From assembly GCA_949358305.1 (NCBI GenBank), contig OX442316.1, positions 14,072,001 through 14,136,000 on the forward strand: 64,000 bases of DNA, in the 5' to 3' direction. A program made the position numbers and the translations under genes. This DNA is from Strigamia acuminata. Taxonomy: Eukaryota; Arthropoda; Chilopoda; Geophilomorpha; Linotaeniidae. Numbering within the stretch: the stretch's first letter is position 1; each line of letters begins with the position of its first letter. The notes below the pieces were generated by a model. It was not told the DNA's origin. It did no database searches and saw only the letters and a program-made list of their open reading frames with translations. Positions 25,995 to 63,998 of the stretch are shown one piece after another.

Positions 25995-26275
25995 GAGGAA
26001 AAATGAATTATTTTTGGGAGGAAAAATGAATTATTTTTGGGAGGAAAAATGAATTATTTTTGGGAGAAAAAATGCAATTTTGGGAAGGAAAATTGCATTC
26101 TTGGAAAGGAAAATGCATTTAAGGGAGGGAAACATGCTTTTTTGGGTAAGAAACATGCATTCTTGGAAAAAATAATGCATTTTTGGAAAGGAAAATGCAG
26201 TTACGGGAAGAAAACATGCATTTTATGTGAGAAAAAAAATGCATTTTATGTGAGAAAAAAAATGCATTTTTTGTG
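25995..26275. repeat. minisatellite, right part and degenerate units
   Basis: Three more 23-bp units continue the array interrupted by the retrotransposon. They are followed by a ladder of related but diverged G-rich and A-rich units (GGGAAGGAAAATGCATT-like) up to about 26270. Confidence 0.8.
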
Positions 26276-27452
26276 CTGTACCGGTATTCGAAGTTTTTTT
26301 GCGTGTACCGGTATTCGATGTTTTTTTGCGTGTACCGGTATTCGATGCTTTTTTGCGTGTACCGGTATTCGATGTTTTAGTATTCGAAGTTTTTTGTGTT
26401 TACCGCTATTCGAAGTTTTTGTATTCGAAATGTTTGTATTCGAAGTTTTTTTGTATGTACCGGTATTCGAAGTTTTTTTGTATGTACCGGTATTCGAAGT
26501 TTTTTTGTATGTACCGATATTCGAAGTTTTTTTGTATGTACCGGTATTCGAAGTTTTTTTGTATGTACCGGTATTCGAAGTTTTTTTGTATGTACCGGTA
26601 TTCGAAGGTTTTTGCGTGTACCGGTATTCGAAGTTTTTTTGCGTGTACCGGTATTCGAAGTTTTTTTTGCGTGTACCGGTATTCGAAGTTTTTTTGCGTG
26701 TACCGGTATTCGAAGTTTTTTTGCGTGTACCGGTATTCAAAGTTTTTTTGCGTGTAACGGTATTCGATGTTTTTGTATTCGAAGTTTTTTGTGTTTACCG
26801 CTATTCGAAGTTTTTGTATTCGAAATGTTTGTATTCGAAGTTTTTTTTGCATGTACCGGTATTCGAAGTTTTTTTGCGTGTACCGGTATTCGAAGTTTTT
26901 TTGCGTGTACCGGTATTCGAAGTTTTTTTTGCATGTACCGGTATTCGAAGTTTTTTTGCGTGTACCGGTATTCGAAGTTTTTTTTGCGTGTACCGGTATT
27001 CGAAGTTTTTTTGCGTGTACCAGTATTCGAAGTTTTTTGCGTGTACCGGTATTCCAAGTTTTTTTGCGTGTACCGGTATTCCAAGTTTTTTTGCGTGTAC
27101 CGGTATTCCAAGTTTTTTTGCGTGTACTGGTATTCCAAGTTTTTTTGCGTGTACCGGTATTCGAAGTTTTTTGCGTGTACCGGTATTCGAAGTTTTTTTG
27201 CGTGTACCGGTATTCGAAGTTTTTTGCGTGTACCGGTATTCGAAGTTTTTTTGCGTGTACCGGTATTCCAAGTTTTTTTGCGTGTACCGGTATTCGAAGT
27301 TTCTTTGCGGGTACCGGTATTCGAAGTTTTTTGCGTGTACCGGTATTCGAAGTTTTTTGTGCTTACCGCTATTCGAAGTTTTTTGCGTGTACCGGTATTC
27401 GAAGTTTTTTGTGCTTACCGCTATTCGAAGTTTTTGTATTCGAAGTTTTTGG
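26276..27452. repeat. about 27-bp minisatellite with ACCGGT and TTCGAA in each unit
   Basis: Roughly 44 tandem units of 25-28 bp built on GTGTACCGGTATTCGAAG followed by 6-8 T and GC. Two six-base palindromes, ACCGGT and TTCGAA, sit 1 bp apart in almost every unit. Blocks of variants occur: GTATGTACC units at 26450-26590, ATTCCAAG units at 27045-27140, and a composite block with GTTTACCGCTATTC that appears at about 26395 and again at about 26790, a higher-order repeat. Unit lengths keep frames open on both strands for hundreds of codons, a by-product of the repeat rather than evidence of protein. Confidence 0.92.
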
Positions 27453-28257
27453 TGTGTTTAAAAAATATGTTAGGTGTTTTTAAAGTTTTCTATGTTTGTA
27501 AAATAAGCTTTTTTAAGGTTTTCATTCGCGCGCTCTTCTTTACCGGGTTCCAGACACAAATCGGTATGCAAACGACTGGAATTTCACTGAAAAGAGAAAA
27601 AAAAAATGAAATTAATTTATAATGCAATCTGCCCAAGTTTTAAAAAAGAAATTATTAATGATATATAACATAATAAATTTATTTTCAAATTTTAGTATTC
27701 AGTAAGCACATCTTAATTCATGTTTAATTTTAAAACCGAATTTACCTTCATTTTCTAAGATTTACTTACAAGTGTGACGATCAACAGACTCATCCAACCC
27801 CAACCCGCTATTTGTTCGAATTCAGCCATTTGACCATTTGCAATCAGGATTTGTGGTCGCATGGTTTTCGTTTGTCCTACAAACTCTTCATCTTAACGAC
27901 TTTTATCTGGAACTACAATATTTATAGTCATTCTTCCAAACTAAACAATTACTTAGCCACGGTATAGAAAACCTTTTAATTAATCGCTACTTTACTTTAT
28001 TATCTGTTCCCCGGAACTGGCTTCGCCTTTTCCAAATAACTAATTGCGATCGAGGCTTATTGTCGAGCGTCGTCTGCTAATTACTCACTTTTTACAAGTG
28101 CATTCCTTTTTTAAAAAAATTAAATTAAATTAAATAATTTAGCACAAAATTATAATTTTGGACATTAGTCCAGTTCTAAAATTAGCTACCACTGTTGCTG
28201 CTGTTGTCCATGTCGTCGTGTCTATCTTCTTTCGGAACCAAGGTTTATAGCTTCATT
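27453..28257. other. gene-free AT-rich sequence
   Basis: No coding region, RNA gene or clear repeat recognised, apart from the run-out of the minisatellite. Confidence 0.4.
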
Positions 28258-54483: not shown

Positions 54484-56809
54484 TCAGATAAATTGATTGT
54501 CTCTTTGTTGATGGTACATGCTTAATGTTCTGGGCATGGATGCTCGTAACTTGGTCCAGAAGTAAGGTTTCTTGGCTTCGACGTATGTTGTCAACGTTAT
54601 GAATGATCTGAATTTCTGATTGATCTTGGAGAGGTCAGGAACGTCGTTTGGCACAACTACGATCACCCGACACACTTTATCTTTGAGTCCCTGTTGGTAA
54701 GCGATGTCGAACTCCAAACGACTCCAATGGCTATTTAAATAGTAGTCAGTCAACACAATGATGGTTCGCTTGCTGCTTTCAACCGAACTGACTATTTGAT
54801 CGGTTATGAATTCACCGGCGGGCCAGTCTCGGTTGTGTAGACACAGTTTATACGATGGAACGCCCGTTTCTAGACCCGGGACGAGGAAGTCCATGATCCA
54901 GTCTTCGTCCTCACCACTGTACGATACGAATGCGTCGTACTCTTTGTCGGCATCCACATCTTCCTCGGACACAAACTTTAAACATATTCCTTTGGAAAAC
55001 ATGTAATACGAAATTTCTGATTTGTAGTTGTTGCACACAATGACAATCACACTTAGTAAAATTACAAGTGCAATAACCGGTAACAAGATGAAATTAGAAC
55101 CGGTTGAATTATCTCCTGTAAATTAAAACAACCGCTGTTAATCAACAAACGTGCAAAACGCTGTTCGTTGGCAAATCTCATGTCATTAAATCTATAAATA
55201 AGCTTACCGGTAATTACGGTAACTTATGTATTGGCTGAGCAGGTGCAATGTAAATCTCAGATTATAGTAAAAAATAAACAAAACCTTTGCCCCTCCATGT
55301 TCAACGTTACTTACCTGCAGGTGTAACTGAGTCAGGAACATATTCAGGTATTTCTAAAAGTTAAAAATTGTACATTGAGTCATTAATTATTTATTAATTA
55401 ATGATAAACTGTCTTACTTTCACAATGAGAAGAATTTGTGGGTAGCCATTTTCCTTGGGCACAAGTACGGATTACTTTGCCCTTTCCTATTGAGTAGCCA
55501 GGTCTAGGGTAATAGATGACCCTCTGCACGTTTGGAATACTGGCATCGGTAGTCAAACAGTTTGGGTTGCGATCAGGTTCTCCACAGGTTAAATCTTATA
55601 ACATGTAATATATACTGTATTATATTGCAAGCAAGCAAAGAATACAAATGAATTGGGTCAAACCTATTTCTGAGTATACGGACACTTCACACAAATTTAG
55701 AGTTCGCATCCAATATGGTCTGTTGTCTTCAACAAGTAAGAAAAAACCCTGACCTTTGCACGGTACCGTTTTATTCAGGTTGTCTTCTGTCTAGGCCAAA
55801 GTTAAACAAAATAAAATCTCATTTTCTAATGCAAAACAATATTTTATTTATTTATTTATTTATTTTTCTTTTAATAGTAATTACCGTTTTTTCAGTTAAA
55901 ACAACATTATAACATTGATGTGTTTGATTGGCATCAACTCCTATTGAGAGAGTTAGATTATAGTGTGTATTATCGGATCTTGCTGCAAAGAAAACAAATG
56001 TCAAAAGTGGTACTGTTTTGCGCAACTTTAGTCTATTTTACCCAAAACGTGTACTTTTGACACATTAACTTTCCTCTGGAAATAAACGGTCCACTATCTG
56101 GCGTTTTTTGAACCACGTTTTATATTTGTGCAAGTTGTAGGGTTGCCATCAATCGCACTATCCCAAGCAAATTTCGTGTCATCAATCGCACTATCCGAAG
56201 CAAATTTCACGTTGCTTGCAGAGTCAATCGTTTTACAGCGGTACGCAAAATTCTGTCCTGAAAAATTAGAATTTAGTTTCAAATTGTTTAATCTATTTCT
56301 TCAATTTACTATATGTGCTTACTACATAAAGGAGGGTATTGAATATCCCAGACAGCATTCCAATTGCAGTCATTGTAAGATTTTCCCTCAAGATCGTAAC
56401 CATCGTGACATTTGTACAATATTCTCTCATTAATATCGTACTCATCTTTGTACGGGGTAATATTTCCCCGAAATGGAAGTCCAGGAAAACCACAACGTGG
56501 TCTAACTATATCACACGGAAAAAATAAATATTAAATAATAATTTTATTATTACTATTAATTTTTTTGAGTATTTCAACGAAGAAATTGATCAACAGGGGA
56601 ACATTTTTACTCTAATCTTGTTTTTAAAAAAAATGGAAAAAAAACTGATTGTATTAGCGAGCATTCTTTTTATCAAGTGAAATTCAATGAAACAAGAAAC
56701 AAGAAGTAAAATTTAAAAAAAAACAAAGCAATTTACCAGGTTGTGTTTGTCCTTTAAAACACAAAAAGTGTACACAAATGATGAAAGTAAAAAGTGCATT
56801 CATTTTCAT
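54484..56809 (-). CDS. CCP-lectin-CCP-TM-TIR receptor (lectin-Toll), one in-frame stop
   Basis: A type I receptor of about 514 aa from eight exons that join in phase: 56809-56737, 56505-56323, 56257-56042, 55982-55885, 55790-55664, 55594-55418, 55353-55315 and 55115-54484 (1545 bp). Exon 1 is a signal peptide (MKMNALFTFIICV...). Exon 2 is a CCP/sushi module (CGFPG, YKCHDGY, NDCNW, PPLC). Exons 3-5 form a fucolectin-like F5/8-type lectin domain (SAIDGNPTTC, WTVYFQRKVNVSKV, ending LNLCEVSVY). Exon 6 is a second CCP whose usual second Cys is displaced (CGEPDRNPNC). Exon 7 is a 13-residue linker. Exon 8 is the transmembrane segment (about 313-332) and TIR (YDAFVSYS at about 364, LCLHNRDW, YFWTKLRASMP). 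A TAG (56077-56075) replaces the first Trp expected in the lectin WW pair; everything else is open. A 33-bp tandem duplication lies just before it. The TIR is closest to Toll D. Probably a lectin/complement-type sensor feeding Toll signalling, possibly now a pseudogene. Confidence 0.78.
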
Positions 56810-57685: not shown

Positions 57686-60517
57686 TTAGTTCAGGTTTTC
57701 GGTGAAAGTGGAGTTTAGATAAATTGTTTCTCTTTTGGTTGCTGGGACACGAGTGTTTTTTGTTCTGGGCATGGATGCTCGTAGCTTTGTCCAGAAGTAA
57801 GGTTTCTTGGCTTCGACGTATGTCGTCAACGTTATGAATGATTTGAATTCCTGATCGATCTTTGACAGGTCGGGAACCTCGTTTGGCACAACTGCGATCA
57901 CACGACGCACTTTATCTTTGAGTCTCTGTTGGTAAGCGATGTCGAACTCCAAACGACTCCACTGGCTCTTTAAATAATTGTCAGTCAACACGAGGATGGT
58001 CCGTCTGCTGCTTTCAACCGACCTGACTATTTGATCGGTTATAAATTCACCGGCGAGCCAGTCTCGGTTGTGAAGACACAGCTTGTACGACGGAACGCCC
58101 GTTTCCAGGCCCGGAACGAGAAAGTCCACGACCCAATCTTCGTCCTCACCACTGTACGAGACGAATGCGTCGTATGTTTTGTCGGCATCGACGTCTTCTT
58201 CAGACACAAACTTTAAACACATTCCTTTGGAAAACACGTAATACGAAATTTCTGATTTGTAGTTGTTGCACACAATGGCAATCGCACTTAATAAAATTAC
58301 AAGTACAATAACCGGTAATAAGATGAACAACCAATTTAAACTGTTACAAATTCGATCAATGTCAGTAAAATTGAACGGTACATTATCTGTTACACATGTC
58401 AATGCATTTTTGTCTTTAAAAGGGTGAGATTTTAACACACGTTTACTCATTTCACAGTCACATTCCCAAGGATTATTAGATAGCTTGAGCTCTGCCAAAT
58501 GCAACAAACTCGTAACTTTATCATCGAATTCGCTAAGGGAGTTGTTGTTTAAGTAAATAGTGGTCAAGCTTGGTAGTACAGGCATATTTTGCAGGGATTC
58601 TAACTGGTTGTATGAGAGGTCTAACAGTGTTATTTGCGACCAAATTGGATCGTCTTTGTGTGGTAGTGAAGAAATTTTGTTACGGCTTAGGTTCAGGCTG
58701 ATAGCAACCGATGAACCGTGCGAATGTATTTTAGGGAAATGTGTCAGGCTTGATTTACTGCATTCAATCGACACATAGGAAACGTTATCGATATCATCGA
58801 CACTACAGTGACAACTAGCTGGACGGTTTTTGGGATAATCACAAAATAAATTGTAATTTATGTTATTCAGAGATAACCCATTCATTTCAGGTGGGGAAGA
58901 ACAGAAGTTATTCTGTGGATTGAAAGTGAATTTTGCACTTTGATTTCGCAGATACTTTATAAATCTGTTTAATCTGCAGTCACACACCAACGGATTGTAG
59001 GACAAGTCAAAATCCACTATTTCAACACGATGTTTAAATGTATTTTCAAAATGGGTTACATTTACACGAGCAATTTTGTTGTGGCTCAAATTAACTTTGG
59101 GAATTTGTTGAAATTGTTTCAGAGTATTTTCATCCAACTCCGTAATGTTATTAAATGTAATGTCAACTTTGTCTGTTACTCCATCAAACAGTTTATGTGG
59201 TATTGTTTCTAAACAGCATTTAGAACATACAAAATTGTTGATACGTTCATCGTCATCATTCATTTTTTGGTAATTTCATCCACCTCGTGACTTAGAAAAC
59301 AGTTATTTGACATATCAAATGTTTCAGCATGTCCTATGTAGTATGTCAGAGGTAGGTTAAGTGCTGCCATTTTATTATTACTAAGATCATAATTAATCCT
59401 AGCATTAGGGTGTGGGTATAATTTTATGAAATGATCCACTTTTGTTATTGAATTATTAGCCAATGAAATTTCTTTTATGTTTTCACTGTGCAAATGAAAA
59501 TCAGTGAACTCAAAGTAACTGATATCATTCGATTCAAGCCGTATCACTTGCAGTTTTTTTGAATAGCTAGGACCTAAACTGAAATTCTTAAGTTTGTTAT
59601 GGCTCATATTTATTTCTACAAGTGAAGGCGAACTTTCAAAAAATGTATGGGGTACCTGGGTAATTTTATTTTTGCTTACGTCAAATTTTTTCAAATGCTG
59701 ATTTTGCGTCAACAATTTCTCGGGTAAAGACGAGGTGGAGTTGTGAGATAGGTCTAGTACTTCTAAAAATTCTAAATCAAACAATGAATCTTCCGGTAGT
59801 AAATTTAAATGATTATGCGATAGATTGAGCTGCTGAATATTTAATATTTTGTTGAAATCAGATCTTGACAATGTACTGACACTGTTGTGACTGAGATCAA
59901 ATTTAATCAATTTATCAAAGCCTTGGGTATTACTTGGGTATTTGAGGGAATTTATTAAAACTGAAATCTAACTCATTGAAATGGTAGGAAATGTTAAGTG
60001 GCAGGTTTCCTGCAATCGATTGTAAACAATTGTGAGACATTTTTAAACTACGGATAGTGTTAGGGTTAGGGAATGAGAGATGTCGGTGAGTGGCTGGTTT
60101 AAATATTTTGCTTAAATTTAAGTGGTTATTTATATTTGAGGAATCACTACAAAAATTAGATATATCAAATGAATATTGGTCTGAATTACTCGCTGTAAGT
60201 TTAGGCTGAAACCATTCTATAAACTTGAATTGTGTTGCGCCGTTAAGTCCATTAATTGTCAGTTTTGAGAAGCTTTTTTCGTCCAATTTGTCTGTGAAGG
60301 AAATTTTTTGAAGAGACCATTCAAAACACACAACTGAGGTTGTGTAATATCTAATGCCCAAATTGTACATATGGCATCTACACGATTTATTCAATGCGGC
60401 ACAGTCAGGTGGTGATGCACATTTTATTTGACTCGAACAGTGGTATGTTGAGTGAACAAGCCTTGCTGAAATAATCAGGCACATCCAAATCCAAAGGTGG
60501 TTAGAAGTATCGCACAT
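57686..60517 (-). pseudogene. Toll-like receptor D, two frameshifts
   Basis: A Toll of the receptor-B subfamily (leader MCDTSNHLWIWMCL) split over two frames: 60517-59930, 59910-59260 in a shifted frame, and 59263-57686 back in the first frame. The first lesion, near 59925, is a local duplication around ACCCAAG that adds one base and brings a TAA. The second, near 59262, is a one-base loss against receptor B at the KYIITDD position. Domains otherwise run in order: leader, LRRs, LRRCT, LRRNT with one Cys changed (RPASCHC where relatives have CPASCHC), second LRR block, transmembrane segment, complete TIR (YDAFVSYSGEDEDW) and tail. Since the rest is open, the lesions are recent or sequence errors. 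The back half resembles receptor A; CNNYKSEISYY after the membrane segment is shared with the lectin-TIR genes. Confidence 0.85.
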
Positions 60518-60637
60518 GTTGCTGTATTTTCTCCAATCTGCAAACTGTATGAAGAATTCAGCGTTTTCACAAACAGAAACTGTATGAAGAAATTCAGCGT
60601 TTAATCACTTTTGTTATCAGTAAATGCTTGATCTATA

Positions 60638-63132: not shown

Positions 63133-63998
63133 TCATATAACTTGATTGTCTCTTTGTTGATGGTACATGCTTAATGTTCTGGGCATGGATGCTCGTAACT
63201 TGGTCCAGAAGTAAGGTTTTTTAGCTTCGACGTATGTCGTCAAGGTTATGAATGTTTTGAATTCCTGATCGATCTTGGACAGGTCGGGAACCTCGTTTGG
63301 CACAATTGCGATCACCCGACGCACTTTATCTTTGAGTCCCTGTTGGTAGGCGATATCGAACTCCAACCGACTCCACTGGCTGTTTAAATAATTATCAGTC
63401 AACACAAGAATGGTTCGTCTGCTGCTTTGAACAGATCTGACTATTTGATCGGTTATAAATTCACCGGCGAGCCAGTCTCGGTTGTGAAGACACAGTTTGT
63501 ACGATGGAATGCCTTGTTCCAGACCCGGAACGAGAAAGTCCACGACCCAATCTTCGTCCTCACCACTGTAAGATACGAATGCGTCGTACTCTTTGTCGGC
63601 ATCGACGTCTTCCTCGGACACAAACTTTAGACATATTCCTTTGGAAAACAGGTAATACGAAATTTCTGATTTGTAGTTGTTGCACACAATGGCAGTCACA
63701 CATAGTAAAATTACAAGTGCAATAACCGGTAACAAGGTGAAATTAGAACCGGTTGAATTATCTCCTGTAAATTAAATCAACCGTTGTTAATCAACAAACG
63801 TGCAAAACGCTGTTCATTGGCGAATCTCGTGTCATAAAATCTATAAATAAGCTTAATTACGGTAACTTTTGTATTAGCTGAGCAGGTGCAATGTAAATCT
63901 CAGATTTTAGTAAAACATATAAATAAAACTGTTGCCCCTTCGTGTTCAACGTTACTTACCTGCAGGTGTAACTGAATCAGGAGCATATTTAGGAATTT
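63133..63998 (-). CDS. second lectin-TIR receptor, partial at window edge
   Basis: The last two exons match the gene at 54484: linker exon 63998-63960 (donor GTAAGT) and transmembrane-TIR exon 63764-63133, both the same length (39 and 632 bp). The TIR is intact (YDAFVSYSGEDEDW, LCLHNRDWLAGEF, YFWTKLRASMP). It ends with the same out-of-frame tail (RTLSMYHQQRDNQ) as the first copy. The remaining exons, presumably CCP and lectin, lie beyond position 64000. About 10% of TIR residues differ from the first copy; here the LAGEF motif matches the Tolls. Confidence 0.8.

Follow-up and report, generated by a model that had tools for sequence, protein, structure and literature searches.

A lectin-like CCP ectodomain joined to a Toll transmembrane-TIR segment in a duplicated gene of the centipede Strigamia acuminata

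As usually described, a Toll receptor has a leucine-rich ectodomain. Can the TIR tail of a Toll also come to serve an ectodomain of a quite different kind? The question is raised by a gene at positions 54484-56809 of a 64,000-nucleotide stretch of Strigamia acuminata DNA (the window; C4:14072001-14136000, on chromosome 3 of a 237.5 Mb genome in 157 contigs), which the initial annotation read as eight in-phase exons for a receptor with two CCP modules, a fucolectin-like domain, a transmembrane (TM) segment and a TIR domain. We call this minus-strand gene copy 1, a sister gene at C4:14135133-14137554 copy 2, and a third gene at C4:12656639-12659011 copy 3 or the lectin parent. Our main reading, to which we give a probability of roughly 0.72, is that a copy of a transmembrane CCP-lectin-like-CCP gene was fused to the TM-TIR part of a Toll and the chimera was then tandemly duplicated, leaving copy 2 readable and copy 1 broken. 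What appears new is the different ectodomain on a Toll TM-TIR segment, in a window copy that is broken and judged against published lists of TIR architectures that were compared in part. The features discussed are collected in Table 1.

Table 1. Features of the two fusion genes, their junction and the nearest Toll. Positions are those of the window except where prefixed by C4.
Feature	Position	Strand	Remarks
Copy 1 exon 1	56737..56809	-	Signal-peptide-like N-terminus (MKMNALFTFIICVHFLCFKGQTQ), judged by eye; copies 2 and 3 resemble it
Copy 1 exon 2	56323..56505	-	CCP/Sushi domain 1; PF00084, 30.3 bits
Copy 1 exon 3	56042..56257	-	F-type-lectin-like (F5/8 C) domain, first part; in-frame TAG at 56096-56094
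Copy 1 nonsense codon TAG	56094..56096	-	Trp in copies 2 and 3
Copy 1 exon 4	55885..55982	-	Middle of lectin-like domain
Copy 1 exon 5	55664..55790	-	End of lectin-like domain (NLCEVSVYSEI)
Copy 1 exon 6	55418..55594	-	Second CCP-like module, four cysteines; undetected by Pfam
Copy 1 exon 7	55315..55353	-	13-residue stalk, phase 1-1
Copy 1 exon 8	54484..55115	-	Chimeric: lectin-gene acceptor and first codons, Toll TM and TIR
Fusion breakpoint interval	55087..55092	-	TTCATC; BLAST homology to both parents overlaps
Lectin-parent-homologous segment	55087..57191	-	78.5% identity to C4:12657335-12659402; about 390 bp upstream of start codon
Toll with TM-TIR nearest the fusion genes	57689..60604	-	Between both copies; split over changing frames
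Copy 2 exon 8	63133..63764	-	Same chimeric exon, 88% identical protein
Copy 2 exon-7-like stretch	63960..63998	-	Acceptor AG lost (reads aa)
Copy 2 exons 1-6	C4:14136134-14137554		Beyond the window

The exon structure proposed for copy 1 held in outline. Eight exons run from 56809 to 54484 on the minus strand with GT-AG borders and compatible phases; what did not stand is that all of them are open with the lectin-like domain intact, since exon 3 contains a TAG. The TIR was confirmed in the conceptual protein (PF01582, 55.5 bits, cut-off 21.3), with a join to the ectodomain that lies inside exon 8 and is common to two copies. Pfam found one Sushi stretch (30.3 bits, cut-off 20.7), which bears out the first CCP module; the second had no Pfam match in copies 1, 2 and 3 and is assigned from four cysteines and similarity to the database protein P0014. 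The signal peptide and TM segment of copy 1 were judged by eye. Whereas Toll and Toll-like receptors have an LRR ectodomain, no LRR family matched copy 1 or copy 2 in Pfam at E<=1. No C-type lectin family matched copies 1-3 in Pfam.

Where does exon 3 end? A late donor at 56042 (TTTTGG/gtaaaa) includes the core WTVYF stretch and is conserved in copies 2 and 3. With this donor, and with the stop written as X, the fucolectin-like domain of the initial annotation is recovered as an F5_F8_type_C_2 match of 28.7 bits (Pfam cut-off 27.8), and the TAG falls in frame. An early donor at 56114 (AACGTG/gttcaa) is a weak-looking site, and the 490-residue protein that it yields had no F5/8 or lectin family in Pfam at E<=1. 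We rejected it as the true end of the exon because the lectin match is gone and the later donor is the conserved one. Since that later donor is conserved and the TAG stands where copies 2 and 3 have tryptophan, copy 1 is broken by a stop within its lectin exon. For 54484-56809 itself to hold an intact, fucose-sensing receptor of the Toll type, exon 3 would have to end at a site such as 56114, and the GT at 56113-56112 does yield an open frame. However, the resulting protein loses the WWTVYF core together with the lectin match, the donor that copies 2 and 3 conserve is the later one, and the fucose motif is missing, so that an intact copy 1 is very improbable.

A version of the gene that looks readable lies next door. 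The TIR exon has 58 matches in the genome, and one other spans all 212 residues, at 88% identity (window 63136-63771). It belongs to copy 2, a tandem sister that lies mostly beyond the window, where its upstream exons were found. Its lectin core is intact, and it is stop-free over 512 amino acids if exon 7 is skipped or 525 otherwise. The damage seen is in the acceptor of the 39-nt stalk exon, which reads ttttaa versus ttttag in copy 1 and the parent; because this exon has phase 1-1, skipping it preserves the frame and leaves an open protein of 512 residues. In Pfam, that protein matched Sushi at 31.9 bits and TIR at 60.2 bits, with an F5_F8_type_C_2 score of 22.9 bits that is below the cut-off of 27.8. 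TIR boxes 1-3 were found in both copies by sequence patterns. Judged by its predicted translation, copy 2 can still encode a signal peptide, a CCP module, an F-type-lectin-like domain, a CCP-like module, a TM segment and a TIR.

Are the two halves truly parts of one gene? The join lies within exon 8: its splice acceptor and opening codons align with the lectin gene, the rest of it with Tolls. In BLAST, the homology of copy 1 to the lectin parent reaches 55087, and that to a neighbouring Toll begins at 55092; the overlap reads TTCATC in copy 1 and two Tolls and TTTATC in the lectin parent. As aligned here, the fusion of a CCP/lectin-like ectodomain to a Toll TM-TIR is real. The Tolls of the C4 cluster in the same genome share with the fusion copies the TIR boxes, a similar TM-TIR and the location, but many of them are one open frame of 909-973 amino acids, whereas the fusion gene has eight exons. 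With the TIR in one long open frame, these Tolls need no splicing to reach it, which could be taken to favor two separate genes here, one a lectin whose exons are never spliced to the other, an orphan TIR exon. Such a pair is very unlikely, given that the junction lies inside a single exon that starts with the acceptor and codons of the lectin gene and that homology to the lectin parent stops at this junction. Because it stops there, the TM and tail exons of the parent were not carried along. At the other end, homology continues about 390 bp 5' of the start codon, so promoter-proximal DNA was carried along as well.

An assembly artefact is also an unlikely source of the join, because the identical junction occurs in two diverged copies whose alignment, introns included, is about 88% identical. 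Moreover, the published assembly is reported at QV 59.6 from HiFi reads (237.5 Mb, 158 scaffolds, chromosome 3 of 19.35 Mb; passages of PMC10556566). Elsewhere in the window, positions 26007-27619 hold overlapping long frames on both strands with a short repeated peptide pattern and look like a tandem repeat array, not genes.

The TIR side of the fusion points to the surrounding cluster. In a TM-TIR tree of 23 sequences drawn from the 58 matches (the two fusion copies and 21 Tolls), the split that unites copies 1 and 2 received 98 UFBoot, and the split that unites both with the Toll at 57689-60604 received 100. The TM-TIR of copy 1 is 81.6-88.6% identical in protein to those of the 21 Tolls compared. 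These values agree with the earlier proposal that the TM-TIR exon is close to neighboring Tolls and that the receptor was made in the cluster; they support a probable origin among the Tolls of this cluster, with a cluster Toll nearest the one at 57689-60604 as TIR parent. The Toll at 57689-60604 matches an intact 942-amino-acid neighbor in three pieces with two frame changes and looks like a pseudogene.

Where did the ectodomain come from? Searched against its own genome, the ectodomain of copy 2 yielded 23 exon matches (E<=0.1) and, besides copies 1 and 2, one complete exon set, the lectin parent, on the same chromosome 1.47 Mb away. This gene has 10 exons and 489 residues, includes counterparts of the first seven fusion-gene exons, and aligns with the fusion genes in exons and introns. 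After exon 7 come small exons of its own kind, first a juxtamembrane one (GVNNSTGNFIV), then one for the parent's own TM segment and one for a tyrosine-rich tail, and the genome-wide TIR exon search gave no match at this locus. In Pfam its F5_F8_type_C_2 match scores 31.4 bits against a cut-off of 27.8. The TM and tail exons led us to reject a soluble lectin as parent; the initial annotation describes fucolectin-CCP combinations as normally soluble or unlinked to TIR. Next to the lectin parent, at about C4:12651349-12654583, CCP and F5/8 C exons mark a further gene region, more distant in sequence; it too was rejected as parent, the similarity being weak.

A protein search with the lectin parent returned one match among 4,433 candidates, P0014 (517 residues, from a contig of 2,704 bases), which is 37% identical over 92% of the query and has the same layout. 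The two share 22 of 26 TM-exon residues and the tail motifs YYNRG... and NELEVDAYG. In Pfam, P0014 matched Sushi at 46.4 bits, with an F5_F8_type_C score of 13.0 that is below the cut-off of 28.2. Like the fusion genes, the parent and P0014 have a signal peptide, a CCP, a lectin-like domain, a CCP-like module, a stalk and a juxtamembrane exon; unlike them, they share their own TM exon and tail, and the parent has no TIR match. Because it has its own TM and tail exons in a layout common to P0014, the lectin parent is probably a membrane protein of some age.

What might the lectin-like domain bind? A profile of three domain sequences matched the F-type lectin FBP32 in the PDB with E 5.8e-8 summed over two domains, a value that is not to be over-read because many PCNA chains, which we treat as noise, also matched (best 1.6e-7, summed over three weak repeats). 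The best single FBP32 stretch covers positions 3-134 of 136 at E 0.0006, fucolectin-related proteins follow at about 0.002, and the parent domain alone had one PDB match, fucolectin-related, at E 0.6. A structure model of P0014 alone had a mean pLDDT of 35. By the definitions given in passages of PMC5712786, the fucose motif HX24RXDX4(R/K) is missing from copies 1-3 and from P0014 in its strict and in a loosened form, and the cation motif h2DGx is kept as AIDGN in copies 1-3. P0014 reads AIDGQ at this motif, with a Q outside the N, D or S published in the same passages, which also state that motif departures may mean another specificity or lost sugar recognition. The sugar recognition first proposed for the receptor is therefore not supported. 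Just before the cation motif, exon 3 (56257-56042) carries a 33-bp in-frame tandem repeat (11 residues, SDSAIDDTKFP), with no extra unit in the parent, where it is single, one extra in copy 1 and two in copy 2.

A close described likeness is to Drosophila furrowed and CG9095, which like the fusion combine an F-type lectin domain, CCP modules and a TM segment; in CG9095, too, two of the basic-triad residues are missing (passages of PMC5712786). However, both are described there with a C-type lectin domain, a family without a Pfam match in the fusion, and the tail of the fusion is a TIR. The words TIR and Toll are absent from the main text of that review.

Is the reading frame being maintained? 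Between copies 1 and 2 the introns differ at 0.083 per site. None of the 3 exon indels (1,539 nt) is off-triplet, whereas 6 of the 10 intron indels (757 nt) and all 13 indels of the two flanks (755 nt) are. Compared with the lectin parent, none of the exon indels is off-triplet in copy 1 (0/2) or copy 2 (0/4), versus 9/10 and 6/8 of their intron indels. Exons 1-7 carry no off-triplet indel in 907 nt versus 19 in 1,512 nt of introns and flanks, a difference with a probability of 1.3e-4 at equal rates.

The substitutions of the ectodomain, by contrast, look neutral. Its dN/dS is 0.88 (0.54-1.53) between the copies and 0.85 and 0.96 against the parent. For copies 1 and 2, respectively, dN from the parent is 0.11 and 0.08 and dS 0.13 and 0.08, and intron divergence (0.22 and 0.19) is well above both. 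With the parent as outgroup, copy 1 has 39 nonsynonymous and 15 synonymous changes and one stop, and copy 2 has 20 and 6; the neutral expectation is about 2.96:1, and neither copy differs from it significantly. All 26 private ectodomain substitutions of copy 2 fall from alignment column 160 on, with none in columns 0-159. This stretch could reflect an exchange with the parent or strong constraint on the first half.

In the TIR exon, dN/dS between the copies is 0.22 (0.119-0.405). Nonsynonymous and synonymous changes number 14 and 14 in copy 1, 8 and 12 in copy 2, and 6 and 14 in the neighboring Toll, and in each case the nonsynonymous changes fall short of the neutral ratio derived from the ectodomain (P 0.007, 0.001 and 3e-5, respectively). 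Residues absent from the 21 Tolls are reached by 5 of the 14 nonsynonymous changes in copy 1 and 4 of the 8 in copy 2, two of these in one codon. This signal of constraint is confounded, because dS between the copies is 0.24, about three times the intron divergence, and the copy 2 TIR shares more with the neighboring Toll (92.3%) than with copy 1 (90.8%), the outcome expected of gene conversion. The pattern suggests that the TM-TIR exons at 54484-55115 and 63133-63764 underwent gene conversion with cluster Tolls, and the low dN/dS may have been inherited in this way.

Could both copies be decaying relics of a fusion that never functioned or no longer does, with copy 2 open through youth and its TIR exon maintained by conversion with working Tolls? 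Copy 1 has its nonsense codon, copy 2 has lost its exon 7 acceptor, the Toll between them is also frame-broken, the ectodomain ratios of both copies look neutral, and the TIR exon bears signs of conversion. When copy 2 was simulated to decay neutrally at the rate of the introns, 5.7% of runs ended without a stop. However, copy 2 is open throughout, and the lack of off-triplet indels in exons 1-7 speaks against decay; we consider the relic explanation unlikely, although it deserves the most weight among the alternatives. We read the data as constraint on the frame with fast or relaxed change in the ectodomain, on which diversifying selection is possible. A more specific proposal makes copy 2 a functional receptor: its lectin-like CCP ectodomain, which formerly had a tyrosine-rich tail, would signal through a Toll TIR and diversify under host-microbe conflict while its frame is kept. 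We advance it tentatively, at a little less than even odds.

How widely does this receptor occur? A search with the full-length copy 2 protein returned 13 proteins of 6,088 candidates, none with a lectin or Sushi domain listed (one has no domain listed at all); the sequences of four of the 13 were examined directly. S. maritima accounts for seven of them, of which six have LRR domains listed and the other a TIR alone. The ectodomain alone had no protein match at E<=1 among 1,931 candidates. Since no S. maritima protein turned up even for the parent, the result is uninformative on the fusion there. Passages of PMC4833078 report 27 TLRs in that species, defined by TIR, TM and LRRs, and a receptor of the present kind could therefore have been passed over.

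In our literature search, which covered mainly openly accessible main texts, we noticed no lectin/CCP-TIR receptor. Unusual TIR partners acquired by shuffling are described for hybrid TIR proteins of amphioxus and for Ig-TIR receptors of cnidarians, and in this respect they resemble the fusion; the partners named in the passages available are Ig, Laminin, NACHT, NB-ARC-WD40, SAM and death domains, and 20 of 28 amphioxus combinations are said there to be specific to amphioxus (PMC2575513, PMC5094078). CCP, lectin and sushi are absent from the main text of PMC2575513, whose full partner list is a supplement. PMC5094078 mentions 381 TIR architectures; the comparison made here is with the partners named in its passages.

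The fusion reading, to which we return, suggests the following course of events. A copy of the CCP-lectin-like-CCP gene, comprising promoter-proximal DNA and every exon as far as the juxtamembrane one, would have been joined, inside this last exon, to the TM-TIR of a Toll in the Toll cluster. Tandem duplication of the chimeric gene would then have given copies 1 and 2. The product would be a type I receptor with a lectin-like/CCP ectodomain in place of a leucine-rich one. Its ectodomain would bind a ligand, not by the canonical fucose site, and cluster the receptor, and its TIR would recruit Toll adaptors; Tolls signal through MyD88, Tube and Pelle to Rel factors. A signal that the parent lectin would pass on through its tyrosine-rich tail would thereby now enter the Toll pathway. 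Architecture and origin are those written in the sequence; splicing, expression, ligand and signaling are predicted from it.

What would such a receptor mean for centipede immunity? Since both parents, the breakpoint and a duplicate are kept on one chromosome, how domain swapping gives rise to a receptor can be traced base by base, and the signaling of the domain-swapped receptor is testable. Expression of copy 2 would mean that, in an arthropod, a lectin-like module is coupled to the Toll pathway directly, with no reliance on a processed cytokine of the Spaetzle kind. Should copy 2 prove functional, the centipede's Toll cluster would be a site at which TM-TIR modules take on ectodomains of foreign origin.
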